Of a stretch of 17,861 nucleotides of DNA, positions 3,720-13,952 are shown one piece after another. The first letter of the stretch is position 1. Each line of letters starts with the position of its first letter. Source of the stretch: a bacterium (GTDB lineage: Bacteria; T1Sed10-126); assembly GCA_003557545.1 (NCBI GenBank), contig PWOD01000183.1, positions 1-17,861 on the forward strand, written 5' to 3'. The notes under the pieces were generated by a model that saw only the letters and a list, made by a program, of their open reading frames with translations, made no database searches and was not told the origin of the DNA. A program made the position numbers and the translations under genes.

Positions 3720-4823
3720 TTAGTATAAATTTTTACGAGGTAGTAAAGCGGCTGCCATGGCAGTTATCGGAATAGCTATTATAAGACCCAATGTGCCAGC
3801 CACACCACTTAAAATTTCAGCAGCGATAAAATCCATATTAATAATTCTTAACCAATGGATCTGATTGTGCATTAAAAGCAATAAAAAGGGAACTGCACCT
3901 CCCACATAGGCAAGAATCAATGTATTAGCCATGGTTCCCATAATATCACGACCAATCTCCATGGCGGCACTAAAAAGCTCCCAAAAAGTTATTTGTGGAT
4001 TGGTTTTTCTTAGCTGGTAAGCGCTGGAAGCAATCGACATACCGACATCAGTAACAGCACCTAAAGCACCGATTATAATGCCTGCATAAAGTAATCCCTG
4101 CATATCAAGAGTTTCCTGACCAACTGCCAGCATCTGCGCTTCCTGGGTTCCCAATCCGGTCAAGTTCGCTGTATTACCAACCAAATAAGCGACCAGACCG
4201 GCGATTAAAACCCCACCACCGGTTCCAAAAATGGCAGCTACTGTTTTACTATTAAATCCTCCAATGATAAGAAGGATGATAGAAATTATTAACAAAGCAC
4301 TAAATGTGGCCACAGGAATAGCCGGCCATCCGGCCAGCATTAAAGGAAGCATTAAATAAATTATTATGAAACCGGTCAGGCCAAGTGTCAGTAAGGTTTT
4401 AAGTCCTTTTAGTTTACCAATAAGAAGGATTGCCACAACCAGCAGTAAACCGGCCCACACCAGCCCGCGATCACGGGCAACATCCTGGAGATGAATCTGC
4501 AGCTCCCCGTTACGATAAAAACCCACCATAAGAACCGGCATTGATTCTTTAAGAATAATCGACATAAACCTATTACGCTCTTCAAAATGATTGGTTATGG
4601 TAACGGTTTCACCGGCCTTTGGTCCTCCAATCAGACGAATACGAGCAACCTGTGTAAGACCACGCCTATACTCTGATTGGGACACAATCTCTTCAACCTG
4701 GCCACGAAAATAATACCGTTCAACCTCTTCAGTTAAAGGATGATAACCTTCCCATGAGAGAGCGATTCCAGAATAAAATAACAGCATAATAATCGCAAAT
4801 AAAAGAGTAAATTTTTTAGACAC
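3720..4823 (-). CDS. YibE/F-family multi-pass membrane protein
   Basis: The protein has 367 residues from the chosen start. It has an N-terminal signal-like helix ending near SWEG, a soluble segment of about 80 residues, then about seven membrane helices. The segment GALGAVTDVGMSIASS is a hallmark of the YibE/F family (PF07907), whose transport or accessory function is not established. An upstream TTG at 4838 could extend the frame by five codons, but GGAGGA at 4831-4836 is ideally spaced (7-8 bases) for the GTG at 4821-4823, so I use GTG. The gene follows feoB by 42 bases in the same direction, so it is probably the last gene of the iron cluster. A role in metal transport or export is only suggested by this context. 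Confidence 0.88.
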   Translation of the reverse strand: MSKKFTLLFAIIMLLFYSGIALSWEGYHPLTEEVERYYFRGQVEEIVSQSEYRRGLTQVARIRLIGGPKAGETVTITNHFEERNRFMSIILKESMPVLMVGFYRNGELQIHLQDVARDRGLVWAGLLLVVAILLIGKLKGLKTLLTLGLTGFIIIYLMLPLMLAGWPAIPVATFSALLIISIILLIIGGFNSKTVAAIFGTGGGVLIAGLVAYLVGNTANLTGLGTQEAQMLAVGQETLDMQGLLYAGIIIGALGAVTDVGMSIASSAYQLRKTNPQITFWELFSAAMEIGRDIMGTMANTLILAYVGGAVPFLLLLMHNQIHWLRIINMDFIAAEILSGVAGTLGLIIAIPITAMAAALLPRKNLY

Positions 4824-4865
4824 TATAAGATCCTCCAAAAACCAGATTGAATAAAATTGGTTTGA

Positions 4866-6668
4866 TTAAATTAAAAGAGCAAACAACCTGCCAAGACGAA
4901 GGATAATCCCACCACCCAAAAATGCGGTTGTGGTAGTCAAAAGTAAAATTCCGAGGGCAATGCGTAATCCGTATTCCTTAGCCAGAGTGGCGATAACAGC
5001 AATACAGGGGACATAAAAAAGTCCCACAACAGATCCGACAAAAAGCTGGAGCATAGAGAGTTCCATGTCAAGTAAAGGAAGAACAGTTAACTCTCGGCGC
5101 ATAATTCCCAGAAGCAAAGGGGTGGCCGCCTCTTCGGGTAGACCCAACCAGCCATCGACCAGAGGTCTCATAAATTGAGCGATAAGATGCATTGTTCCGG
5201 TTTCATATAAAACAGCGGCGATCCCTACTCCAATCACCATGGGAACAGCCCCGTCAAAAATAAAATGTTTAAAACGTAACCAGATTTTTTTAGCAACAAC
5301 GGTCAGACGGGGCATTAATAGTTCTGGAAGCTCCAGGGTTATCGGCATAAGCTGTTCTGAAATAAAAAGATCCATGACCAATCCAGCCAACAAAATAATT
5401 ATCCATGAAAAAATGAACACCAGCGGAACCAGCCATACGGAGAACTCCGATAAAAGAGCAATGAAAGCACCGGTTTGAGCTATACAGGGGACTGCCAGAG
5501 AGATCATAATGGCAACCGTCAAACGCTCACGCCTGGTGGACATGGCGCGGGCAGCAAGAATTCCCGGAATTGCACAGCCGTATCCTAAAAGCAGCGGAAT
5601 AATGTTTCCACCAGAAAGACCAATTTTATTCAGAACACCATCCAATAAAATACCAAGCCGGGGCATATATCCACTATCTTCAAGGAGAGTCAAAGCCACG
5701 TAAAAACTCAAAACATAAGGCATAACAAGGGCAAACGGCCACTCCAACCCTTTAATCATGAAACCATATTCCCCAATCAAAATCTCTCTGAACAAACCGG
5801 GTGAGAGCAAAGCTGAAACAGTATTTTCTATAAAAGGAATAATAAAATTGTCAAATAGAGGAATTAACAAGAACTGCCTCAGGCCCATACCCAGACCAAC
5901 AATAATCATAAAAATCACAACTAATACCAGAAGTGCTATAGGAAATCCTGACCATGGTTCGATTAACAGCTGATCCCAACTCTCCTTAATCCCGGTACTA
6001 TCTTCCCCTATCTTCTCATAAGCAGTACGGGCCAGATCATCGGCCAGTTCCCAACGAGTTTCAGAACTGATATCAGACTCAAGCGCACGCTTAACGATAG
6101 GATTGGGAGTCGATGATTTTAAATCATCCGGACGATTCAAAAAGGAGACAATCTCCTGTTGAAGTTCATTCAACCCTTTTTTCTCGACAGCGACAGTCTG
6201 AATGATCGGTATATTTAACAATGAACCGAGGTATTCGATATCAACTTTTAAACCACTATTTTCCAACAGATCAATCCGATTGATCGCAACAACGGTTGGA
6301 ATCTTATATTCAAGAACCTGAAATAATAAATGCAGTGAACTATCAAGATTACGAGCATCCAGCACACAGATCACCAGGGTGGGTGATTGCCCAAGCATAT
6401 CAACCGCCACCTGTTCGGCGGCGTTAGTCGCTCGTAATGTGTAGGTACCGGGAACGTCGATAAAATTTACGGGTTGATCATCCAACTGTTCAGCAATAAA
6501 ATTTGCCCGGCCGGCAGTATAACTCACAGTAGTGCCAGGATAGTTCGCCATCCCCACGTTAAGGTCAGTAAAATGGTTAAATATAACACTCTTCCCTACA
6601 TTAGGTGGCCCAATTAAAAGAATCGTCGGCTGGTCTAAAAGCTGGTTGGTTGAGATCTCTTCAGTCAT
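4866..6668 (-). CDS. feoB: FeoB ferrous iron transporter
   Basis: FeoB is the GTPase-linked inner-membrane transporter for Fe(II). The 600-residue protein, at the short end of the family, has an N-terminal G domain with GPPNVGKS (G1, 20-27), the YPGTT switch (44-47), DVPG (G3, 71-74) and NRID (G4, 130-133, where NMxD is more usual). A helical linker follows, then the membrane part with two Gate-like regions; LLLGYGCAIPG carries the conserved pore cysteine, and VPCIAVIATLAKEYG the second gate motif. A longer frame opens at 6824, but its first 52 residues overlap FeoA-coding sequence and do not look like FeoB, so I start at ATG 6668. That ATG overlaps the stop of the methyltransferase-FeoA gene (ATGACTGA), a strong sign of translational coupling. 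There is no separate feoC. Confidence 0.96.
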   Translation of the reverse strand: MTEEISTNQLLDQPTILLIGPPNVGKSVIFNHFTDLNVGMANYPGTTVSYTAGRANFIAEQLDDQPVNFIDVPGTYTLRATNAAEQVAVDMLGQSPTLVICVLDARNLDSSLHLLFQVLEYKIPTVVAINRIDLLENSGLKVDIEYLGSLLNIPIIQTVAVEKKGLNELQQEIVSFLNRPDDLKSSTPNPIVKRALESDISSETRWELADDLARTAYEKIGEDSTGIKESWDQLLIEPWSGFPIALLVLVVIFMIIVGLGMGLRQFLLIPLFDNFIIPFIENTVSALLSPGLFREILIGEYGFMIKGLEWPFALVMPYVLSFYVALTLLEDSGYMPRLGILLDGVLNKIGLSGGNIIPLLLGYGCAIPGILAARAMSTRRERLTVAIMISLAVPCIAQTGAFIALLSEFSVWLVPLVFIFSWIIILLAGLVMDLFISEQLMPITLELPELLMPRLTVVAKKIWLRFKHFIFDGAVPMVIGVGIAAVLYETGTMHLIAQFMRPLVDGWLGLPEEAATPLLLGIMRRELTVLPLLDMELSMLQLFVGSVVGLFYVPCIAVIATLAKEYGLRIALGILLLTTTTAFLGGGIILRLGRLFALLI

Positions 6669-7569
6669 TGTTTTCACGTACCAGTTTAATATTATCCGCC
6701 AGGGACCTATCAACCGCGACCTTGCGCCCGGATGTTTCAACAACCAGCGGCCCCCCAAAACTTTCTCTGGCACGCAGACGAACCTTTCGACCAGGTCGTA
6801 AACCCAGAGGAGCCAGCAGATCATTTTGTGGTGTGTCGGTAATAACAGCCTGTTCTCCGTTATGCAGCTGATTAAGAGTTAAAATTTTTAACGGATTACC
6901 AGTACGATCATGATTCCACGAACTTTTCTGGGCTTTCTCGGGTAGCTTCTCTAAAACCAGCGACTGCTTACCCAACCAGCCTTTCACCCGTAAAGCTTTC
7001 AGATTATCGGCAATCATTTCTGGCTCCACCCGGGGATATAGCTTGGCCAACCACCCCCGTGGAGTTCGATATACTATACGTCCGCCGGGCGAAAGCTTTT
7101 TAAAAACTGATTTTAACACCTGAAGCTGTGGATAAACATGTAAAGATACCCAGACAGCCTGATAACCAGTACTATCAACCTGAGTGCCTTCGCCAAGTTC
7201 AAACTGTAAATCTCCAGATTCAACCAGCCTTTGAGATTTTGCAATTTTTCGAGCCGAGCGCAGTTGGGCAGAGCTATTTTCCAGTGCTGTAACCTGACAG
7301 CCAAATTCTACCAGAGCAAACGAGGTTAATGGCAAGGCACCACAGCCTATATGAAGAATTTTTTCTCCCGGTTTAATCCTGGCCAGCTCAATCTCGCGTG
7401 AAACTATTTTGTTATAAAACAAACGCCGATAAAGACGGGCAAACCCTGGTATATAGACACCAATTTTTTCAAGTTTACAGATAATATTTCTTACCATCCT
7501 GAAAAACGGAGTAGAAAGATCCTTAACAAACTCTTGAATTTCGGTATCCGATATCTTGTGATCTTTCAA
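6661..7569 (-). CDS. SAM-dependent methyltransferase-FeoA fusion protein
   Basis: The 302-residue product joins two domains. Residues about 35-210 form a class I SAM-binding fold: ILHIGCGALPLTS (71-83) is the glycine loop, VTALEN (93-98) carries the acidic ribose contact (Glu97), and LSPGGRIVYRTP (159-170) is a late strand typical of these enzymes. Residues about 227-299 are a FeoA SH3-like domain: LTLNQLHNGEQ at its start, then LGLRPGRKVRLRARESFGGP, ending in KLVRE. FeoA normally is a free small protein that binds FeoB on the cytoplasmic side. The gene overlaps feoB by 8 bases. The N-terminal domain is a paralogue of the methyltransferase at 8795-9343. The start is uncertain: TTG at 7569 has no ribosome binding site, and the same frame is open for 29 more codons (to 7656), overlapping the end of the preceding gene, without any ATG, GTG or TTG. 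Substrate unknown. Confidence 0.88.
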   Translation of the reverse strand: MKDHKISDTEIQEFVKDLSTPFFRMVRNIICKLEKIGVYIPGFARLYRRLFYNKIVSREIELARIKPGEKILHIGCGALPLTSFALVEFGCQVTALENSSAQLRSARKIAKSQRLVESGDLQFELGEGTQVDSTGYQAVWVSLHVYPQLQVLKSVFKKLSPGGRIVYRTPRGWLAKLYPRVEPEMIADNLKALRVKGWLGKQSLVLEKLPEKAQKSSWNHDRTGNPLKILTLNQLHNGEQAVITDTPQNDLLAPLGLRPGRKVRLRARESFGGPLVVETSGRKVAVDRSLADNIKLVRENND

Positions 7570-7627
7570 AACTATATCAATCCCATCTTTGAAAACTATC
7601 TGAGGAGCAAAAAGATTTTTTCCTGAT

Positions 7628-8629
7628 TCAACTATAACTGCTGCTGGGTCGAGATTTTAAAACCGGCCAGAACTGTTTCATTGTTAGAAGAGTTACGAAA
7701 CCTGAAATCAGCAGTGGAAACCAGAAGGTAACTGTACGGGAAACCAGTACTGTTCCCAACCCCTGCGAAGAGGAATATCCATTCAATACAAACAACATAA
7801 CTACAACAGATTCATAGCTACCCAGACCGCCCGGAAATAAAGGAACCATACTAACAAGATAAGCGGCATAAGTAACAAGCATAATAAAGAAAATATTGAG
7901 TTCAATATTAAGCAGTCGCGCAGCAATATAAAGTTTCAAAGGATAAAACAGCCAGATTAAAAAACTGATAGTGAACAGCCTGAATAACTGACCGGGTGCC
8001 AGGAGTTCCAGGGCCTGCTGGTAAGCCCGTATAAGAAACTGTTTAATTATCATCAGTTTCTGCTGAACTAATGAATAAGATTGATCGTTTTTATCGGAAA
8101 GGGCCTCATCGTATCCAGCGGCAAAATATCTACCAGCCCAAAACAGGGCCAGTAGAGAGAAGATAAAGAATGAAACCAAATAAAAAAATTGCCGGGGCAC
8201 TGAATAATAAAATGCACCAGACGTAAAAACTAACAAACAGAGAATAACCAGGGGAACAATAGAAATAAATTTTTGAGCCAGCAATACACCTACCACCCGT
8301 TTATAGCCCTGTTTAACCTGCTGTTCCAAAAGATATGTCCTGACTGCCTCACCACCAAATTTTACCGAGGGGGTAACACTTTCAACAAAACTTGAAATCA
8401 AAGATATTTTAGCAACAGTTAGATAACCCAGAGGACTACCACTGGACTCCAGGAGGCTATACCAGATGTAGTACTGCAGCGACAGGGTGAACAGCTGTAA
8501 TCCCAACAAAAATAGGAACAGCGGATTACCAAGCTGATCAACTACCGTAAGCAACTGCTGTGGGCCGGCCAAATAGATTAAAACTAATATCACAGACAGT
8601 CCAAAAAACCAACCAATAATATGCTTCAT
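7628..8629 (-). CDS. Lysylphosphatidylglycerol synthase TM region / UPF0104 family membrane protein
   Basis: The 333-residue protein is almost wholly made of membrane helices (roughly eight) and matches the UPF0104/LPG_synthase_TM family (PF03706), the flippase-like half of MprF and related stand-alone proteins. The motif FVESVTPSVKFGGEAVRTYLL (in full, residues about 80-100 of the protein) and PLFPGGLGSYE in the C-terminal half are characteristic. No LPG-synthase catalytic domain is attached, so aminoacylation of lipids is not implied. I chose the ATG at 8627-8629, 12 bases after an AGGAGAG site, over a TTG 11 codons upstream. It lies between two paralogous methyltransferases, so it may move or anchor a lipid or membrane product they modify; that is inference from context only. 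Confidence 0.87.
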   Translation of the reverse strand: MKHIIGWFFGLSVILVLIYLAGPQQLLTVVDQLGNPLFLFLLGLQLFTLSLQYYIWYSLLESSGSPLGYLTVAKISLISSFVESVTPSVKFGGEAVRTYLLEQQVKQGYKRVVGVLLAQKFISIVPLVILCLLVFTSGAFYYSVPRQFFYLVSFFIFSLLALFWAGRYFAAGYDEALSDKNDQSYSLVQQKLMIIKQFLIRAYQQALELLAPGQLFRLFTISFLIWLFYPLKLYIAARLLNIELNIFFIMLVTYAAYLVSMVPLFPGGLGSYESVVVMLFVLNGYSSSQGLGTVLVSRTVTFWFPLLISGFVTLLTMKQFWPVLKSRPSSSYS

Positions 8630-8677
8630 AAGAAGTTCATACTCTCCTGAATAAAATATCAACCTTAAAATTTCTAG

Positions 8678-8693
8678 CCGGTAAGAAAACCGG
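8678..8693. other. Small inverted repeat upstream of the UPF0104-family gene
   Basis: CCGGT at 8678-8682 and ACCGG at 8689-8693 flank a six-base loop, about 50 bases before the chosen start. It could be a leader hairpin or a protein binding site. No T-run follows in either direction. Confidence 0.35.
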
Positions 8694-8721
8694 AATTAAA
8701 AACAAAAAACTCCTGAACCCT

Positions 8722-8752
8722 AAAAAGCCAGCTTGCACGACCAAAAATGGCT
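8722..8752 (-). terminator. Weak terminator or attenuator between the small methyltransferase and UPF0104 genes
   Basis: On the minus strand AGCCA (8752-8748) can pair with TGGCT (8730-8726), followed directly by a run of T residues (AAAAA on the plus strand at 8722-8726). The stem is only five pairs with a 17-base loop, so termination would be partial at best and could lower expression of the downstream iron genes relative to the methyltransferase. Confidence 0.3.
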
Positions 8753-8794
8753 CTAACAGTTTAAAAAACTTCAGCGATATTATTAATTCACAAC

Positions 8795-9343
8795 TCACGC
8801 TGCCGTTAAATAAAGCACAGAACGATCAAAGGTTTTCATCGATTGCTCAACGCAGGCGGCCGGCGAAGGGGTCGAAGGAATATTGTCGTAATAGGCTTTG
8901 AAATCTGAACTGGGACAACGAAAAACAAGACGCTTTCTACCAGCAGATAGATCAACGAGATTATTAAATATAGCCAGTTTGGGCGCAGCCTGCAAAGCTA
9001 CAATCGAAACATCAAAATCGGAAAATTTTATCTCATGGCCCAGACCCTGAAAGAGATTTATTTTTCCATTCAGATCCCATCTTTCTACCTGTTTACGGGC
9101 TTTTTTCAGGGCAAAAGAATCCCCGTCAATTGCTGTTACTGAACAGCCAGTTTGTTCCACCAGTAACCTGGCTGTAAAAGGTACTGCTCCACAGCCAATA
9201 TTTAAAACTCGATCGGTCCGGGTAACTGAAGCCAGCTCAATTTCACGACGGACCACTTCCGAATAGATCCCGGAATAATATTTTGTAAACCAGGGCAAAT
9301 AACTAAGTCCCTTTTCAAACTTTGCAACAACCTGCGGTATCAT
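8795..9343 (-). CDS. Small class I SAM-dependent methyltransferase, paralogue of the FeoA-fused one
   Basis: The 182-residue protein contains the SAM loop RVLNIGCGAVPFT, the acidic strand end VTAIDGD, and a late strand RLVFRCP. Along its length it aligns with residues 34-210 of the methyltransferase-FeoA protein: shared features include an EK-x3-Y-x-P-x-F start, the string REIELA, the GCGA-x-P-x-T loop, LVE followed by GC-x-VTA, and ARK. It lacks the FeoA domain. I chose the ATG at 9341-9343 over one five codons upstream because GGGGGAG (9351-9357) is well placed for it. It is the first gene of the cluster that leads to feoB, with a candidate promoter just upstream. G-x-G-x-x-P-x-T loops also occur in nicotianamine synthase-like enzymes; a metal-ligand product is speculative, and the substrate is unknown. 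Confidence 0.8.
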   Translation of the reverse strand: MIPQVVAKFEKGLSYLPWFTKYYSGIYSEVVRREIELASVTRTDRVLNIGCGAVPFTARLLVEQTGCSVTAIDGDSFALKKARKQVERWDLNGKINLFQGLGHEIKFSDFDVSIVALQAAPKLAIFNNLVDLSAGRKRLVFRCPSSDFKAYYDNIPSTPSPAACVEQSMKTFDRSVLYLTAA

Positions 9344-9379
9344 TACAAACTCCCCCATCGTTATAATTAAACTTCAATA

Positions 9380-9409
9380 ACTATAACAAAGTTTTGGGGT
9401 GTTTGTAAA
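9380..9409 (-). promoter_or_regulatory. Candidate promoter for the methyltransferase-feo cluster
   Basis: On the minus strand TTTACA (9409-9404) and TATAGT (9385-9380) are 18 bases apart, close to the sigma-70-type consensus, and lie about 37 bases before the ATG at 9343. They fall in the 77-base gap after thiC. I saw no recognisable Fur-type box here. Confidence 0.5.
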
Positions 9410-9420
9410 GTTAAACGCAA

Positions 9421-10707
9421 CTAATTTTTTTGAACCGAACTGTTTTTAACGGCACACCAATCAGCCCCACACATCGAACAGTGTTGATCGTCCGATGACG
9501 GATCGGCCGAACTAAGATCGATGATTTTTTCCGGTTCATAACAGTATTTAAGCTGGCGCTTCCAATCAAGCGCCGCGCGGGCTCGAGAAAGCTCATGATC
9601 CAAACTATCCACGCCGGGAATTTCCCGAGCAATATCAGCTGCATGGGCAGCAATCTTAAAAGCAGCGCAACCCTCTTTCACAGCAGCTTCATCAGGTAAG
9701 CAAAGATGTTCAGTAGGAGTTACGTAGCAAAGTAAGGCAGCCCCATGACGAGCAGCTTCCGTCGCTCCGATAGCCCCGGTTATATGATCATATCCAGGAA
9801 AAATATCACTCACCAGGGGTCCCAGAACATAGAAAGGAGCATGGTTACAAAGCTGCTGCTGAAGCCGTACATTTTGAGCAATCTGATCAAAGGGAACGTG
9901 ACCTGGCCCTTCAACCATTACCTGTACCCCGGCTGACTGAGCCTGCTCTGTCAACTCCCCCAGAACCTCTAATTCGGCGAGTTGAGCAGCATCAGTGGCA
10001 TCAGCCAGACATCCGGGACGTAAAGCATCCCCCAATGAAATTGTCACATCATACTCGGCCAGCAAAGCAATTATTTCTGAAAAATATTGATAGAGAAAAT
10101 TTTCTTGATTATTACAACGCATCCAGCGAGCCAGTAAACTCCCCCCTCGACTAACAATTCCCCCAAGCCGTTTTTCAACAAGTGATAGATGGTCAAACAG
10201 CAAGCCTGAGTGAATGGTAAAAAAATCCACACCCTGAACTGCCTGTTTTTCCAACTCTTTAAGAAAAAGCTGAACTGTGAGATCTTCAGGAGAGCGATCC
10301 TGGACAAGTGAATAGAGCGGAACTGTACCGACCGGCACCGGGGAAGCCGAAACCATCTGTTTTCTCAACAGGGATAGATCGCCTCCAGTCGAAAGATCCA
10401 TCACAGTATCCGCACCTGCCTGCAGAGCTGCCGTCAATTTTTTCTGCTCTTCGGAAAGATCGGATGCATCGGCTGATGTGCCCAGATTAGCATTGATTTT
10501 AGTCAGGGCTCTCTCCCCTATCAAAACCGGATTTAATCCCATTTCAAGATGGAGAGGATTGGCCGGAATTATTGCCCGACCGGCAGCAATTTCAGCTGAA
10601 ATTTCTTGCGTTGTCAGATGTGATTCGCGTTCGGCAACCATTTCAACCTCAGGGGTTATCTGACCATTTCTGGCAGAGCTTAACTGAGTTTTACAAGCGG
10701 ATTTCAT
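9421..10707 (-). CDS. thiC: ThiC, phosphomethylpyrimidine synthase
   Basis: ThiC is a radical-SAM enzyme that rearranges 5-aminoimidazole ribotide to HMP phosphate, the pyrimidine half of thiamine. The 428-residue length fits the compact bacterial/archaeal form. Family marks are NPLHLEMGLNPVLIGE (the conserved N-terminal GxxxxVNANIG-like region is ALTKINANLGTS), MDLSTGGD, VGTVPLY, the region DALRPGCLADATDAAQ, MVEGPGHVP, YVTPTEHL and the C-terminal cluster motif CSMCGADWC (Cys410, Cys413, Cys418), the C-x2-C-x4-C signature of ThiC. The ATG start follows an AAGGTG site by about ten bases. It lies 101 bases behind the isochorismatase-like gene in the same direction and should be governed by the TPP riboswitch ahead of that gene. 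No other thi genes are in the window. Confidence 0.97.
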   Translation of the reverse strand: MKSACKTQLSSARNGQITPEVEMVAERESHLTTQEISAEIAAGRAIIPANPLHLEMGLNPVLIGERALTKINANLGTSADASDLSEEQKKLTAALQAGADTVMDLSTGGDLSLLRKQMVSASPVPVGTVPLYSLVQDRSPEDLTVQLFLKELEKQAVQGVDFFTIHSGLLFDHLSLVEKRLGGIVSRGGSLLARWMRCNNQENFLYQYFSEIIALLAEYDVTISLGDALRPGCLADATDAAQLAELEVLGELTEQAQSAGVQVMVEGPGHVPFDQIAQNVRLQQQLCNHAPFYVLGPLVSDIFPGYDHITGAIGATEAARHGAALLCYVTPTEHLCLPDEAAVKEGCAAFKIAAHAADIAREIPGVDSLDHELSRARAALDWKRQLKYCYEPEKIIDLSSADPSSDDQHCSMCGADWCAVKNSSVQKN

Positions 10708-10808
10708 AGGTTATCAACACCTTAAAAAATTTAATTGCTCCAGCAAAATGTTTCATATAAGTAAAGTAATTTCAAACAAACTTCTGCAACTCCCCGGTCA
10801 AGAAGCTC

Positions 10809-11318
10809 CTAAAAGAGAGTTTCTTCAAGCAACCCCCGTCTGGCCCAGCTGTGCAAACAGCTGGCATGTTCATCCTGCCGCTTTCCACAGGCCGCAACAC
10901 CCTGGGGTAATAATTTAACCGGCCAGTTGTTTTCAAGAAGATCATGCAGAGTAGCATTGACACAACGATGAGTACAAAAACCAGCTAAAAGCAGCGGACG
11001 GGGTTCAGTAAAAAACTGTTTCAGAACAAAATAACCAGTCTGCTGCTGTTTGATCAACTTCTTCCCTGCGGCAAGATGTGGATACCAGATCGAGCCGACC
11101 GGAGTAGAACAGAGCCCCGGCATATCAGTCCAACGGTGCGGATCGTAATTTGAGGCTATTCTCAAAATTTTCGGATATCCGAGGAGCTTCCTACACAGAT
11201 AAGAAAGAGCCGACTGGAAAGGAAAGATCGGACGACCGGCGCGAGCATAAATTCCGGCGGGATGGTAAAAATCAAACTGCAGATCTATTAAAACTACCCA
11301 GGGTAATGACAAAATCAT
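10809..11318 (-). CDS. Isochorismatase-family cysteine hydrolase in the TPP-riboswitch unit
   Basis: The 169-residue protein has the isochorismatase/nicotinamidase fold signature: LIDLQFDF near the start with catalytic Asp12, Lys90 in KLIKQQQTGYF, and the nucleophile Cys119 in GFCTHRCVNAT, completing the Asp-Lys-Cys triad. Members hydrolyse amides or vinyl ethers such as nicotinamide, isochorismate, N-carbamoyl compounds or ureidoacrylate. The nicotinamidase metal-site pattern (D-x-H-x-x-H) is not visible; PHRW at 60-63 sits near that region. The gene is the first one behind a TPP riboswitch and directly precedes thiC, so its reaction may belong to thiamine synthesis or salvage, for instance hydrolysis of a pyrimidine or thiazole breakdown product. 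That is inference. The ATG is only four bases after GGGAG, which the riboswitch may sequester. Confidence 0.85.
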   Translation of the reverse strand: MILSLPWVVLIDLQFDFYHPAGIYARAGRPIFPFQSALSYLCRKLLGYPKILRIASNYDPHRWTDMPGLCSTPVGSIWYPHLAAGKKLIKQQQTGYFVLKQFFTEPRPLLLAGFCTHRCVNATLHDLLENNWPVKLLPQGVAACGKRQDEHASCLHSWARRGLLEETLF

Positions 11319-11322
11319 CTAA

Positions 11323-11349
11323 CTCCCATAACAGTAAGACCACAGGGAG
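11323..11349 (-). promoter_or_regulatory. Possible ribosome-binding-site sequestering stem (riboswitch expression platform)
   Basis: On the minus strand CTCCC (11349-11345) can pair with GGGAG (11327-11323), the putative ribosome binding site of the hydrolase gene. No transcription terminator with a U-run lies between the aptamer and the gene, so control at translation initiation is the likelier mode. Confidence 0.45.
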
Positions 11350-11369
11350 CCGAAGGGTACCTATGAGGG

Positions 11370-11462
11370 TGAGAGCAATTTCCTACGCCGGTTTTAACCG
11401 GATCAGGTTCAAGGAGTATATCTCATGTTTCACAGCAGTGAAACAACCCCCATTGCTCCTGG
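11370..11462 (-). ncRNA. TPP riboswitch (THI element)
   Basis: On the minus strand the conserved TPP aptamer core is plain: ATGAGATATACTCCTTGAAC followed by CTGATCCGGTTAAAACCGG and CGTAGGAAATTG. The closing stem P1 pairs GAGCAAT (11458-11452) with ATTGCTC (11379-11373); P3 is the hairpin TTTCAC-tgct-GTGAAA; the P5 hairpin is CCGG-ttaaaa-CCGG. It lies about 50 bases before the isochorismatase-like gene, which is followed by thiC. Bound TPP would be expected to lower expression of both. Confidence 0.95.
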
Positions 11463-11483
11463 GTCATCATTTTATCTAATTTA

Positions 11484-11512
11484 ATTATCAAACATGCGCC
11501 CGACAGGCCCAA
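11484..11512 (-). promoter_or_regulatory. Candidate promoter of the TPP-riboswitch transcript
   Basis: On the minus strand GATAAT (11489-11484) is one base from the -10 consensus, with TTGGGC (11512-11507) 17 bases upstream as a poor -35. Transcription would begin just before the aptamer. Confidence 0.4.
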
Positions 11513-11584
11513 GCCTATCTAAGCTGTCCAGCTTCCAATAAATTATTTTCACTAATAGATTGTACTATCTACCCGGTTAATAAT

Positions 11585-11974
11585 TCAACCAAACAATAAC
11601 TCCATCAACACCCAAACTGATAAAAACAACCAGACAAGCCAAACCAGAGCATATTCAGACCAAAATCTATCCTGGTGAAATTTATCTTTAAAAGCTTCAA
11701 GTAGTTGTGGAGAAAAAGGCGCCATGGTAAAGGCGAACAAGAAAGATCCAAACAGCATCGAAGCATAAATCTTAACGACTGAAATTTCAATTAATAACAG
11801 ATAAAAAATTACTCCTCCCAACAGTAATAAAACCAGTTGAAGAAGCAGATTTTTACTGTGAATAAAGGTTGCCAGATTAACAGTTAGCCTGGGAAACAGC
11901 AAGAAAACAAAAAACTTTAAAATAACAAGAACAGCTAACAGTAAAGCGAAAAGCTCAATCAAACTCACAATCAT
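11585..11974 (-). CDS. Small hydrophobic membrane protein of unknown function
   Basis: The 129-residue product from the ATG at 11974 is nearly all hydrophobic and has about four membrane helices: residues about 4-26, 42-60, 64-90 and 106-127, the last ending in MELLFG. I do not recognise a family. A longer frame from 12049 would overlap the end of the TIGR03545 gene by 32 bases; I prefer the internal ATG, which begins after that gene's stop and has a modest GGGG site. It closes the run formed by the histidine kinase, TIGR03546 and TIGR03545 genes, so it may be an accessory of that membrane pair. No terminator with a U-run follows, only two small hairpins around 11500-11540. Confidence 0.6.
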   Translation of the reverse strand: MIVSLIELFALLLAVLVILKFFVFLLFPRLTVNLATFIHSKNLLLQLVLLLLGGVIFYLLLIEISVVKIYASMLFGSFLFAFTMAPFSPQLLEAFKDKFHQDRFWSEYALVWLVWLFLSVWVLMELLFG

Positions 11975-12017
11975 CAACCCCAATTTAAAAATTTGGACAA
12001 CAGTTACCTGTTCAGGG

Positions 12018-13952
12018 TTAAAACCCCCAACGCTGCCGCAGATCATCAATCTGGCGGTCTAATTTTTCGCCAGTGTGTTCCCGATAGCTTTCCTCTATAT
12101 CAATCAAACTGTCATCAATTAAAGATTCAATACGTTTTTCTAGCTGATTAAGCTTTTCACTATAGAGAGTTTCATGCCGAATAAGCTCTTGTTCAAGTTC
12201 ATTAATTTTCCCCAGATAAGCCCCTTCAAAAGCCTTTATGGCCTGCTCACGAGCATAATCTAAATCAGCCGAAAACTGCTCGCGGAGGATCTCAGTCAGC
12301 TGACTATCCAGATTAGAACTAACAGACCAGGAGCTCTGTGAATCGGTCGAACTACCGGCGGCCCGCAACTCGAGCTGATCAATCTGTCGAAAAGCATTTT
12401 TCAACCTATCAGTAACAGAGGATGACTGAGCATCGACGATAAATGAAAGATCAGTCAAATAAAAATCAAGTTCGACCGTTCTAACATCCCCCGCAGAATG
12501 AGCAGTAAATTTCATTTCCCCCCGGGCCTGCTGTATTCCCAGTTCAAGCAGATCACTATTAACAAACGGCCAATCAGTCAGATGATAATCCTCCAGCTGA
12601 ATTTCAATACTATCCCGGGGACGGGACTGGGATCGATCCAGCAGCAACTCCACCTGTAGATTTCCAATACCCCGCTCCGGAAAATTACCACTAAAATGTC
12701 CAATTGCCGGTTGCCCGACAGCAGGTGGGTAACTGGTGAAATTTAACAACTTCCCAACACCAGCTCTTCCCTTTTCAGTATCTACTGAAAAGTTTGCTTT
12801 TTGCAGCCAAAAATTAGGATATGCAGTAGAAATAGGAAAACTATAGTTCCTGCCCAGATCAGCCGGTTTAGAACTAACAGTTTTAGCTGTCTCATCATCC
12901 GAGTCCGGGCCAGTAGAATCTGGCAAATAGTCGTCAATCATAGAGAATGCCTCCACATACCAGCCAAATCGTTCATCCAGCATTTTTTTAATAATAGTTG
13001 TGCTAAAGTCGGCAAGTTCAAACTCCGGCAACTGAAATCTATCTGATAATTCTATCCGCTGTAAAGCTGCTTCATCCTGCAAACTATCCAGCTGATTTTT
13101 AAGCTGCCGGAATTTTCTCTCTGATAAACGGTAACTGTCGTTGAACTGCGATTTATAACGATTTAAATCTTCCTGTAAAAGCTGCAGCTGTCTGACAGCT
13201 CGCTGAACCTGTTGAGGAGATTCAGGGCGGGTTTGTTGAAGAGTTTTCAAATTCTGATCGATTTTCTGTAATTCAGTATCACCAGGCAAGTCTGCATATA
13301 GTTCTTCGACCAGTTGAAGATCACTCTCTAACTGCTCCTCAAAACGATCGATATCCCGGATTATTTGATGTTCTCCTACCAGTTGGTCCAACCCGGTAGT
13401 TTCATCCAACGCTGGAATAATATCAGCAAAAATCGTGCCTTCCAATTGCTCAATCGCCGCGTCAGAAAAATGAGGAGAAAAACTATCTGATGTCCAATCA
13501 ACCAACCGCTGTAACCATGAGGGTCCCGCTGCTCTATCAAGCTCCAAAATTTCACCCGGAGTAGTCCGCTCGGTAGAAAATTTAAGCTCCTCGACCGCCA
13601 GCTCCGTAATCAAAACCTTCCCCCTTAAAAGGGCATCCCAACTGAGACCAAAGGCAGTCCGGGAAAACTCAAAGGAGTTATGAGTGGGACGATTGCGATC
13701 AGTAAGTTCCAGACCATAAAGTTCCACAAGAGGTCGGCTGAATCTCAATTCGAGACGATCAATCGTTAACTCGGCCCGGGCCAGCCGGGTTCCAACTGCT
13801 TCAAGAAAGCTTTTCAGATTGGTTTCGAGAAGAAAATTTAGATAAAGAAAGAAAAGTAAAAAAACCAAACCCAGGGGCACTATAGCCCCAACTCTCAGAG
13901 AATCTTTAAATAGTTTCAAAAAACTTTTTAGTTTATCCAAATAATTTGTCAT
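12018..13952 (-). CDS. TIGR03545-family large envelope protein, AsmA-like
   Basis: The 644-residue protein has one N-terminal membrane anchor (about 19-42), followed by a segment with the AsmA-like pattern ARAELTIDRLELRFSRPLVE and GLELTDRNRPT, then a long coiled-coil stretch (about 245-305), a beta-rich middle, and a second strongly charged coiled coil at the C-terminus (about 570-640). Layout and partner gene fit TIGR03545, an uncharacterised family nearly always next to TIGR03546. Most of the protein should lie outside the cytoplasmic membrane. The start at ATG 13952 overlaps the end of the TIGR03546 gene by 20 bases, so the two are likely translated together; an in-frame extension to 14015 lies inside that gene and is rejected. 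AsmA-like proteins act in lipid traffic to the outer membrane, which suggests but does not show a similar role. Confidence 0.82.
   Translation of the reverse strand: MTNYLDKLKSFLKLFKDSLRVGAIVPLGLVFLLFFLYLNFLLETNLKSFLEAVGTRLARAELTIDRLELRFSRPLVELYGLELTDRNRPTHNSFEFSRTAFGLSWDALLRGKVLITELAVEELKFSTERTTPGEILELDRAAGPSWLQRLVDWTSDSFSPHFSDAAIEQLEGTIFADIIPALDETTGLDQLVGEHQIIRDIDRFEEQLESDLQLVEELYADLPGDTELQKIDQNLKTLQQTRPESPQQVQRAVRQLQLLQEDLNRYKSQFNDSYRLSERKFRQLKNQLDSLQDEAALQRIELSDRFQLPEFELADFSTTIIKKMLDERFGWYVEAFSMIDDYLPDSTGPDSDDETAKTVSSKPADLGRNYSFPISTAYPNFWLQKANFSVDTEKGRAGVGKLLNFTSYPPAVGQPAIGHFSGNFPERGIGNLQVELLLDRSQSRPRDSIEIQLEDYHLTDWPFVNSDLLELGIQQARGEMKFTAHSAGDVRTVELDFYLTDLSFIVDAQSSSVTDRLKNAFRQIDQLELRAAGSSTDSQSSWSVSSNLDSQLTEILREQFSADLDYAREQAIKAFEGAYLGKINELEQELIRHETLYSEKLNQLEKRIESLIDDSLIDIEESYREHTGEKLDRQIDDLRQRWGF

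Follow-up and report, generated by a model that had tools for sequence, protein, structure and literature searches.

A ferrous-iron transport operon with short nicotianamine synthase-like enzymes and a flippase-like protein, including a fusion of one such enzyme to FeoA

Introduction

Feo is the main bacterial system of Fe(II) uptake, while the role of FeoA and the way in which FeoB captures Fe(II) are still debated. In the stretch of bacterial DNA analysed here (the window, 17,861 nucleotides) FeoA is not a stand-alone small protein and forms the C-terminal domain of a 302-residue fusion protein whose gene runs into feoB. The locus thus raises the question of what enzyme has been joined to FeoA and what such an enzyme could do at a ferrous iron transporter.

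Feo operons, nicotianamine synthase (NAS)-like enzymes, and MprF-type flippases are each known, while their combination in one operon is apparently undescribed. In the open-licence literature no description was found of NAS together with FeoA/FeoB or of phosphatidylserine synthase (PssA) and a flippase together with FeoB, and one paper names both nicotianamine synthase and FeoA, each of them once. Two published surveys would pass over an operon of this kind, because CntM served as the search key in the survey of opine zincophores (PMC7438024) and the survey of FeoA fusions was confined to combinations of Feo domains, the fusions with non-Feo partners being removed (PMC8980893).

The Fusion Gene and Its Connection with feoB

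The features of the locus are collected in Table 1. The fusion gene is read as a single frame without internal stop, and its C-terminal part matches the FeoA profile PF04023 with 43.8 bits (cut-off 23), which bears out the C-terminal FeoA domain of the preliminary description. A profile search of the whole genome to which the window belongs (G000, a 2.15 Mb metagenome-assembled genome (MAG), 92% complete) gave no FeoA match besides the fusion protein. The coupling to feoB by an 8-base overlap, also claimed previously, was confirmed: the fusion frame ends with AAT GAC TGA and feoB starts with ATG ACT GAA at position 6668, the encoded FeoB scoring 306 bits against TIGR00437, slightly below the cut-off of 315.65.

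Table 1. Features of the window; positions are counted from its first nucleotide.
Feature	Position	Strand	Basis
YibE/F-like membrane protein, downstream of feoB	3720..4838	-	profile match
feoB, ferrous iron transporter, 600 aa	4866..6668	-	FeoB_N 142.6 bits, Gate 91.5
Short NAS-like domain (type A, NAS-A) fused to FeoA	6661..7569	-	302 aa, TTG start
Overlap of fusion stop and feoB start, 8 bases, ATGACTGA	6661..6668	-	sequence
FeoA domain, residues 231-295	6685..6879	-	PF04023
NAS PF03059 match, residues 66-187 (profile positions 120-248 of 276)	7009..7374	-	Pfam
Tyr52 codon, aligned with Tyr107 of MtNAS	7414..7416	-	HMMER alignments
Glu34 codon, aligned with the invariant NAS Glu (Glu81 of MtNAS)	7468..7470	-	alignment inference
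LPG_synthase_TM / TIGR00374 flippase-like membrane protein	7628..8662	-	profile matches
Second, stand-alone short NAS-like protein (type B, NAS-B), 187 aa	8795..9358	-	best matches MtNAS, CntL

The sole further genome of the same phylum in the sample is the sister genome G001 (contig PWHN01000039.1, isolate T1Sed10_126), where the gene order, the NAS-A::FeoA fusion (46-48% identity), and the 8-base overlap with feoB match those of the window. The fusion and the overlap are thereby confirmed as real and conserved between two species, and a missed stop or an assembly accident is ruled out, since G001 carries the same fusion and another genome, G156, a separate one.

The Enzyme Joined to FeoA

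The N-terminal domain is a short relative of nicotianamine synthase and not an ordinary methyltransferase, because the NAS profile PF03059 is matched above its cut-off, the archaeal thermonicotianamine synthase MtNAS ranks first by sequence and by predicted structure, and the NAS Glu/Tyr pair is invariant. The fusion protein scores 31.3 bits against PF03059 (cut-off 27.1) and its relatives score 38-52 bits, generic methyltransferase Pfam models also matching the fusion protein alongside. The closest solved structure by sequence is MtNAS (3fpe, E 7e-10), and a profile built from five sequences recovered MtNAS with E 3.5e-14 versus 5e-7 for the top non-NAS entry. The AlphaFold2 model of the fusion protein (mean pLDDT 83.9) had MtNAS as the top match both in Foldseek and in VIA-align (Z 19.8, 195 residues, 3.2 A), and in the latter CntL was the next fold match. 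According to these data the class I, Rossmann-type SAM fold proposed in the preliminary description is upheld by sequence and predicted model, while its designation as a methyltransferase has to be given up: the fold is common, yet NAS and CntL head both the sequence and the structure rankings, and an ordinary class I methyltransferase is disfavoured.

MtNAS and CntL use SAM as the donor of an aminocarboxypropyl (2-aminobutyrate) group, which they attach to an amine. In the mechanism proposed for MtNAS this amine is deprotonated by Glu81 and Tyr107, and AtNAS1 loses its activity through the corresponding changes E77Q and Y106F (PMC10491745, PMC10248798). In the window protein the counterpart of Glu81 was assigned from an alignment with six full-length NAS/CntL-like proteins, in which this Glu is invariant, and the equivalents of Glu34 and Tyr52 are kept in 15 out of 15 short relatives. 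About 50 residues precede Tyr52 in the fusion protein, the full N-terminal helical domain of NAS (about 100 residues) being absent, and because most of this domain is missing the enzymes are designated here as short NAS-like and not as NAS proper.

Accompanying Genes of the Locus

Upstream of the fusion gene lie two genes whose nature was not mentioned in the preliminary description, which was correct as to the fusion, the FeoB coupling, and the SAM fold. The first encodes a flippase-like membrane protein, which scores 37.9 bits against the MprF model (cut-off 600), and the second encodes NAS-B. The latter remains below the cut-off of PF03059 (17.3 bits) and scores 31.8 bits against the CntL equivalog model, whose cut-off is 350, but MtNAS and CntL are its closest solved structures and its predicted model matches MtNAS at Z 20.4. 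A CntM opine dehydrogenase was not present among those cluster neighbours that were scanned, which are only part of all neighbours, so that a standard staphylopine-type cluster is unsupported; this interpretation is kept as a rival because of one locus in another genome (L160, see below).

The YibE/F-like gene is probably a neighbour of the cluster, which it often follows, though less constant than the others. It recurs in this vicinity in L075 (27-1148), L080, L081 (1678-3003), L125 (7798-8964), L128 (4470-5600), and L021. On the other side, 62 bases upstream of NAS-B and on the same strand, the window contains a gene for ThiC, the thiamine pyrimidine synthase (9421-10707), which is probably a mere neighbour since it was not seen in the G001 cluster. 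Further upstream an open reading frame at 10809-11318 shows a weak isochorismatase-like match (24.1 bits, under the cut-off of 27).

Distribution and Gene Neighbourhood

A scan of GTDB contigs gave three further records in which NAS-A and FeoA are separate but close and are accompanied by NAS-B and feoB, two of the three also having the flippase-like gene. Matches were found in 25 of 97 genomes of the class holding these records and in 46 of 398 genomes of the same phylum (Bacillota in the record lineage), in the latter case with an E-value of 1e-14 or lower. Among 386 genomes of the relatives of G000, nearly all from other phyla, only G009 and G658 were added to G000 and G001, both with proteins of full NAS length; this sample gave no support for a wider spread among bacteria. 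In G009 no feo gene is present within the 3.5-kb locus, where the full-length NAS-like gene (L004, 1375-2627) stands beside an open reading frame that by eye resembles S-adenosylmethionine decarboxylase.

Gene maps were drawn for 70 loci, 38 of which extend 4 kb or more beyond the NAS genes in each direction, and a gene was counted as a neighbour when it was within 4 kb and on the same strand as the NAS genes. In these fully seen loci feoA and feoB adjoin the short NAS genes in 32 of 38, the homologues having been found by sequence and not by context, with search profiles that were built from feo-linked members; the chance of adjacency to a feoB was estimated as less than 1% per locus. The flippase-like gene is a neighbour in 30 of the 38, and feoB is absent from six. 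Thus, a ferrous-iron transporter, a NAS-like enzyme, a flippase-like protein, and often a phosphatidylserine synthase form a conserved operon.

Several loci show other surroundings. In L126 (G409, 5936-12227) a second NAS-like gene, scoring 48.4 bits against the CntL model, is flanked by a VTT-domain membrane protein on one side and by a Mn/Zn-type ABC transporter (ZnuA 269 bits, ABC-3, and ABC_tran) on the other, and an open reading frame adjoining this operon resembles MntR by eye; Mn/Zn import seems to be a further process that the NAS family serves. In L160 (G239, 7969-13099) a short NAS-like gene is grouped with the gene of an EamA transporter and with ABC genes of the Opp type, possibly as a soluble metallophore cluster, and in L137 (G210) the NAS-like gene has the flippase-like gene alone at its side. 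From these three contexts metal transport proteins and membrane lipid or efflux proteins emerge as recurrent partners of the family. A lone type A gene in L132 (G444, 3939-5307) adjoins a DUF4198 protein; proteins of this type are often encoded near nickel/cobalt transport genes. In L141 the flippase-like gene (4476-5489) is split into two open reading frames, likely by a frameshift or a sequencing error. The record of L028 is labelled Candidatus Sumerlaeota, while its genome G061 was matched in the Bacillota search and its FeoB groups there, and the label is probably wrong.

Origin of the Fusions

The tabulation of fused and separate domains and of adjacency to feoB, a check that had been suggested at the outset, gave besides the counts above NAS-A::FeoA fusions in the window/G001 pair and in G156 (L075, 2908-3810). 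A different fusion was found in G153 (L063, 8850-10565, on a 3.56-Mb contig), where NAS-A is the C-terminal part of a fusion with the flippase-like protein. The FeoB tree places the window pair with G444 and G486, and G156 with G155, G059, and G153. In G486 NAS-A and FeoA are separate neighbours, and G444 has a separate FeoA with NAS-A elsewhere. On account of these groupings a separate origin is the best reading for each of the two NAS-FeoA fusions, the fusion having arisen at least twice; the NAS-A tree added no further resolution of this history. The FeoB of the window nests within the Bacillota set, which is consistent with horizontal transfer into the little-known phylum of the window.

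According to the preliminary description, separate domains in related genomes would make the fusion a local accident or a missed stop. The domains are indeed separate in most relatives; the conclusion of an accident fails because the unfused genes remain operon neighbours and fusion occurred on at least two occasions.

Phosphatidylserine Synthase and Decarboxylase

A gene of a CDP-alcohol phosphatidyltransferase (PF01066) is often the last one of the operon in the second main clade of the FeoB tree. The nearest NCBIfam family of this gene is PssA (TIGR00473), which was the best-scoring family in all five proteins tested, with 137 bits in L082, 120 bits in L161, and 95-99 bits in the three others against a cut-off of 107. 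A gene of this PssA type (pssA in the following) lies within the operon in 19 genomes. In nine genomes checked the operon gene is the sole strong PssA match, G196 having a second, partial one.

Phosphatidylserine (PS) decarboxylase (PF02666, psd) was found in none of the 19 genomes with an operon pssA versus 11 of 12 genomes with pssA elsewhere (Fisher p 1.4e-7). When kinship is taken into account by the FeoB tree, four independent contrasts remain, all in the same direction, with p 0.125, their number alone being too small for significance. The exception is G244, with two pssA-like genes and no psd. A housekeeping pssA is weakened by this distribution, G244 excepted. Since the genomes with an operon pssA have no psd, PS is not routed to phosphatidylethanolamine (PE) in the usual way there, which fits its use as an acceptor by NAS-like enzymes.

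Neither PssA nor PS decarboxylase was matched in G000, G059, G060, G153, G156, G069, and G106, most of which carry the second enzyme NAS-A. Without PssA the acceptor in these seven would not be PS, unless the MAGs are incomplete; in particular, PS as the acceptor in the organism of the window is unsupported, as no pssA match occurs in its 92% complete MAG.

Possible Function and Alternative Explanations

It is very probable that the operon represents NAS-type SAM chemistry serving a metal transporter. By analogy with NAS and CntL, the NAS-like enzymes most likely take the aminocarboxypropyl group from SAM and attach it to an amine. For the acceptor, the flipping, and the delivery to FeoB we infer a route in which NAS-A, within the fusion, and NAS-B would load the 3-amino-3-carboxypropyl group from SAM onto an amine acceptor, probably a phospholipid head group, because the operon contains an MprF-type flippase-like protein and often a pssA without decarboxylase. 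This acceptor would be PS where pssA is present and another amino-lipid in the organism of the window. A lipid that chelates metal in the manner of nicotianamine would result, and the flippase-like protein would bring it to the outer leaflet, where it would concentrate Fe(II) close to the membrane for uptake by FeoB. The fusion with FeoA would tether the NAS-like enzyme to the transporter.

That the NAS product is a chelating lipid serving the Fe(II) supply of FeoB has, in our estimation, slightly less than an even chance. The complete proposal, in which a widespread undescribed operon makes a membrane-anchored metallophore (an aminocarboxypropylated phospholipid) that is flipped and feeds FeoB, with NAS joined to FeoA in some species, is offered tentatively. 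We know of no use of a lipid chelate by FeoB, and the G239 locus, where the NAS-like gene lies by an EamA exporter and Opp genes and fits a soluble metallophore, speaks against a lipid product. Also to be counted against the proposal are the small number of independent pssA/psd contrasts, the genomes without a PssA match, and the exception G244. In its favour are, besides the operon and its pssA, the MprF-like layout of the G153 fusion and the metal-transporter surroundings of the second NAS copy in G409. The earlier suggestion that a small iron ligand could be modified by the fused enzyme was on a good track.

A soluble product inside the cell is a doubtful alternative. Here a nicotianamine-like molecule at the cytosolic mouth of FeoB would receive and buffer incoming Fe(II), the FeoA fusion would place its synthesis at FeoB, and the membrane role of the flippase-like and PssA proteins would be a different one. 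The NAS-type sequence, fold, and catalytic pair agree with this explanation, with archaeal thermonicotianamine as a model product; MtNAS copurifies with thermonicotianamine (PMC10491745), and FeoA, a cytosolic protein, binds to the G domain of FeoB (PMC8980893). It leaves unexplained, however, the flippase-like gene, the decarboxylase-free operon pssA, and the flippase::NAS-A fusion of G153.

It is unlikely that the product is a secreted soluble metallophore of opine or nicotianamine type, exported by the TIGR00374-type protein and mobilising outside Fe(II) for FeoB. The closeness of NAS-B to CntL and the transporters of L160 point that way, EamA exporters being typical of opine zincophore clusters (PMC7438024). 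However, a CntM-type dehydrogenase was not seen among the scanned neighbours of the window cluster, FeoB is no importer of chelates, and the TIGR00374 family is tied to lipids and not to amino acid export.

The proposal of the preliminary description, a SAM sensor or an ordinary methyltransferase acting on FeoA, FeoB, or a small ligand, is highly improbable: the class I SAM fold and the matches of generic methyltransferase models accord with it, but searches by sequence and by structure place NAS and CntL above methyltransferases, the catalytic Glu of NAS is invariant despite its position outside the SAM-binding fold, and pure SAM sensing for FeoB gating leaves the lipid genes unexplained. A local accident without functional meaning, to which the separation of the domains in most relatives could be referred, hardly deserves consideration, as two species keep the fusion at 46-48% identity, G156 has a second one of its own, and separate NAS-A and FeoA genes are operon neighbours across the family.

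An operon that links FeoAB with metallophore-type chemistry and with lipid genes offers a testable new component of the Feo system. The membrane-anchored metallophore proposed above would add possible metal-binding lipids to the soluble metallophores of NAS enzymes and would account for the retention of phosphatidylserine synthase without decarboxylase in some bacteria.

Comparison with Known Systems

The closest known protein is MtNAS (PDB 3FPE/3FPG/3FPJ; PF03059), the best match by sequence and fold, with which the Glu81/Tyr107 pair, the glycine-rich SAM motif, and the core align; it differs in its length of 298 aa with a full N-terminal helical domain, while the window domain has about 210 aa, is fused to FeoA, and is encoded in a feo operon. 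CntL, the aminobutanoyltransferase of staphylopine biosynthesis, is the second-best fold match of the fusion model, and NAS-B matches the CntL model and CntL chains; the partners of CntL are CntK, CntM, and a peptide-type ABC importer, none of which was seen in the window cluster.

A precedent for moving the aminocarboxypropyl group of SAM to a lipid is the BtaA-type transfer in betaine lipids, although BtaA is apparently not homologous to NAS, MtNAS, or CntL and the likeness is one of chemistry alone (PMC10491745). Fusions that tie FeoA to another part of the Feo system have been described, as in Bacteroides fragilis (PMC8980893), but these join FeoA with FeoB or repeat FeoA, whereas in the window FeoA is joined to a NAS-like enzyme. 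Finally, MprF, the lysyl-phosphatidylglycerol synthase/flippase, combines a flippase-type membrane domain with a cytosolic domain that modifies the lipid head group, which is the layout of the G153 fusion, with the difference that MprF has a tRNA-dependent aminoacyl transferase as its synthase domain, the place of which is taken in the G153 fusion by a NAS-like domain.
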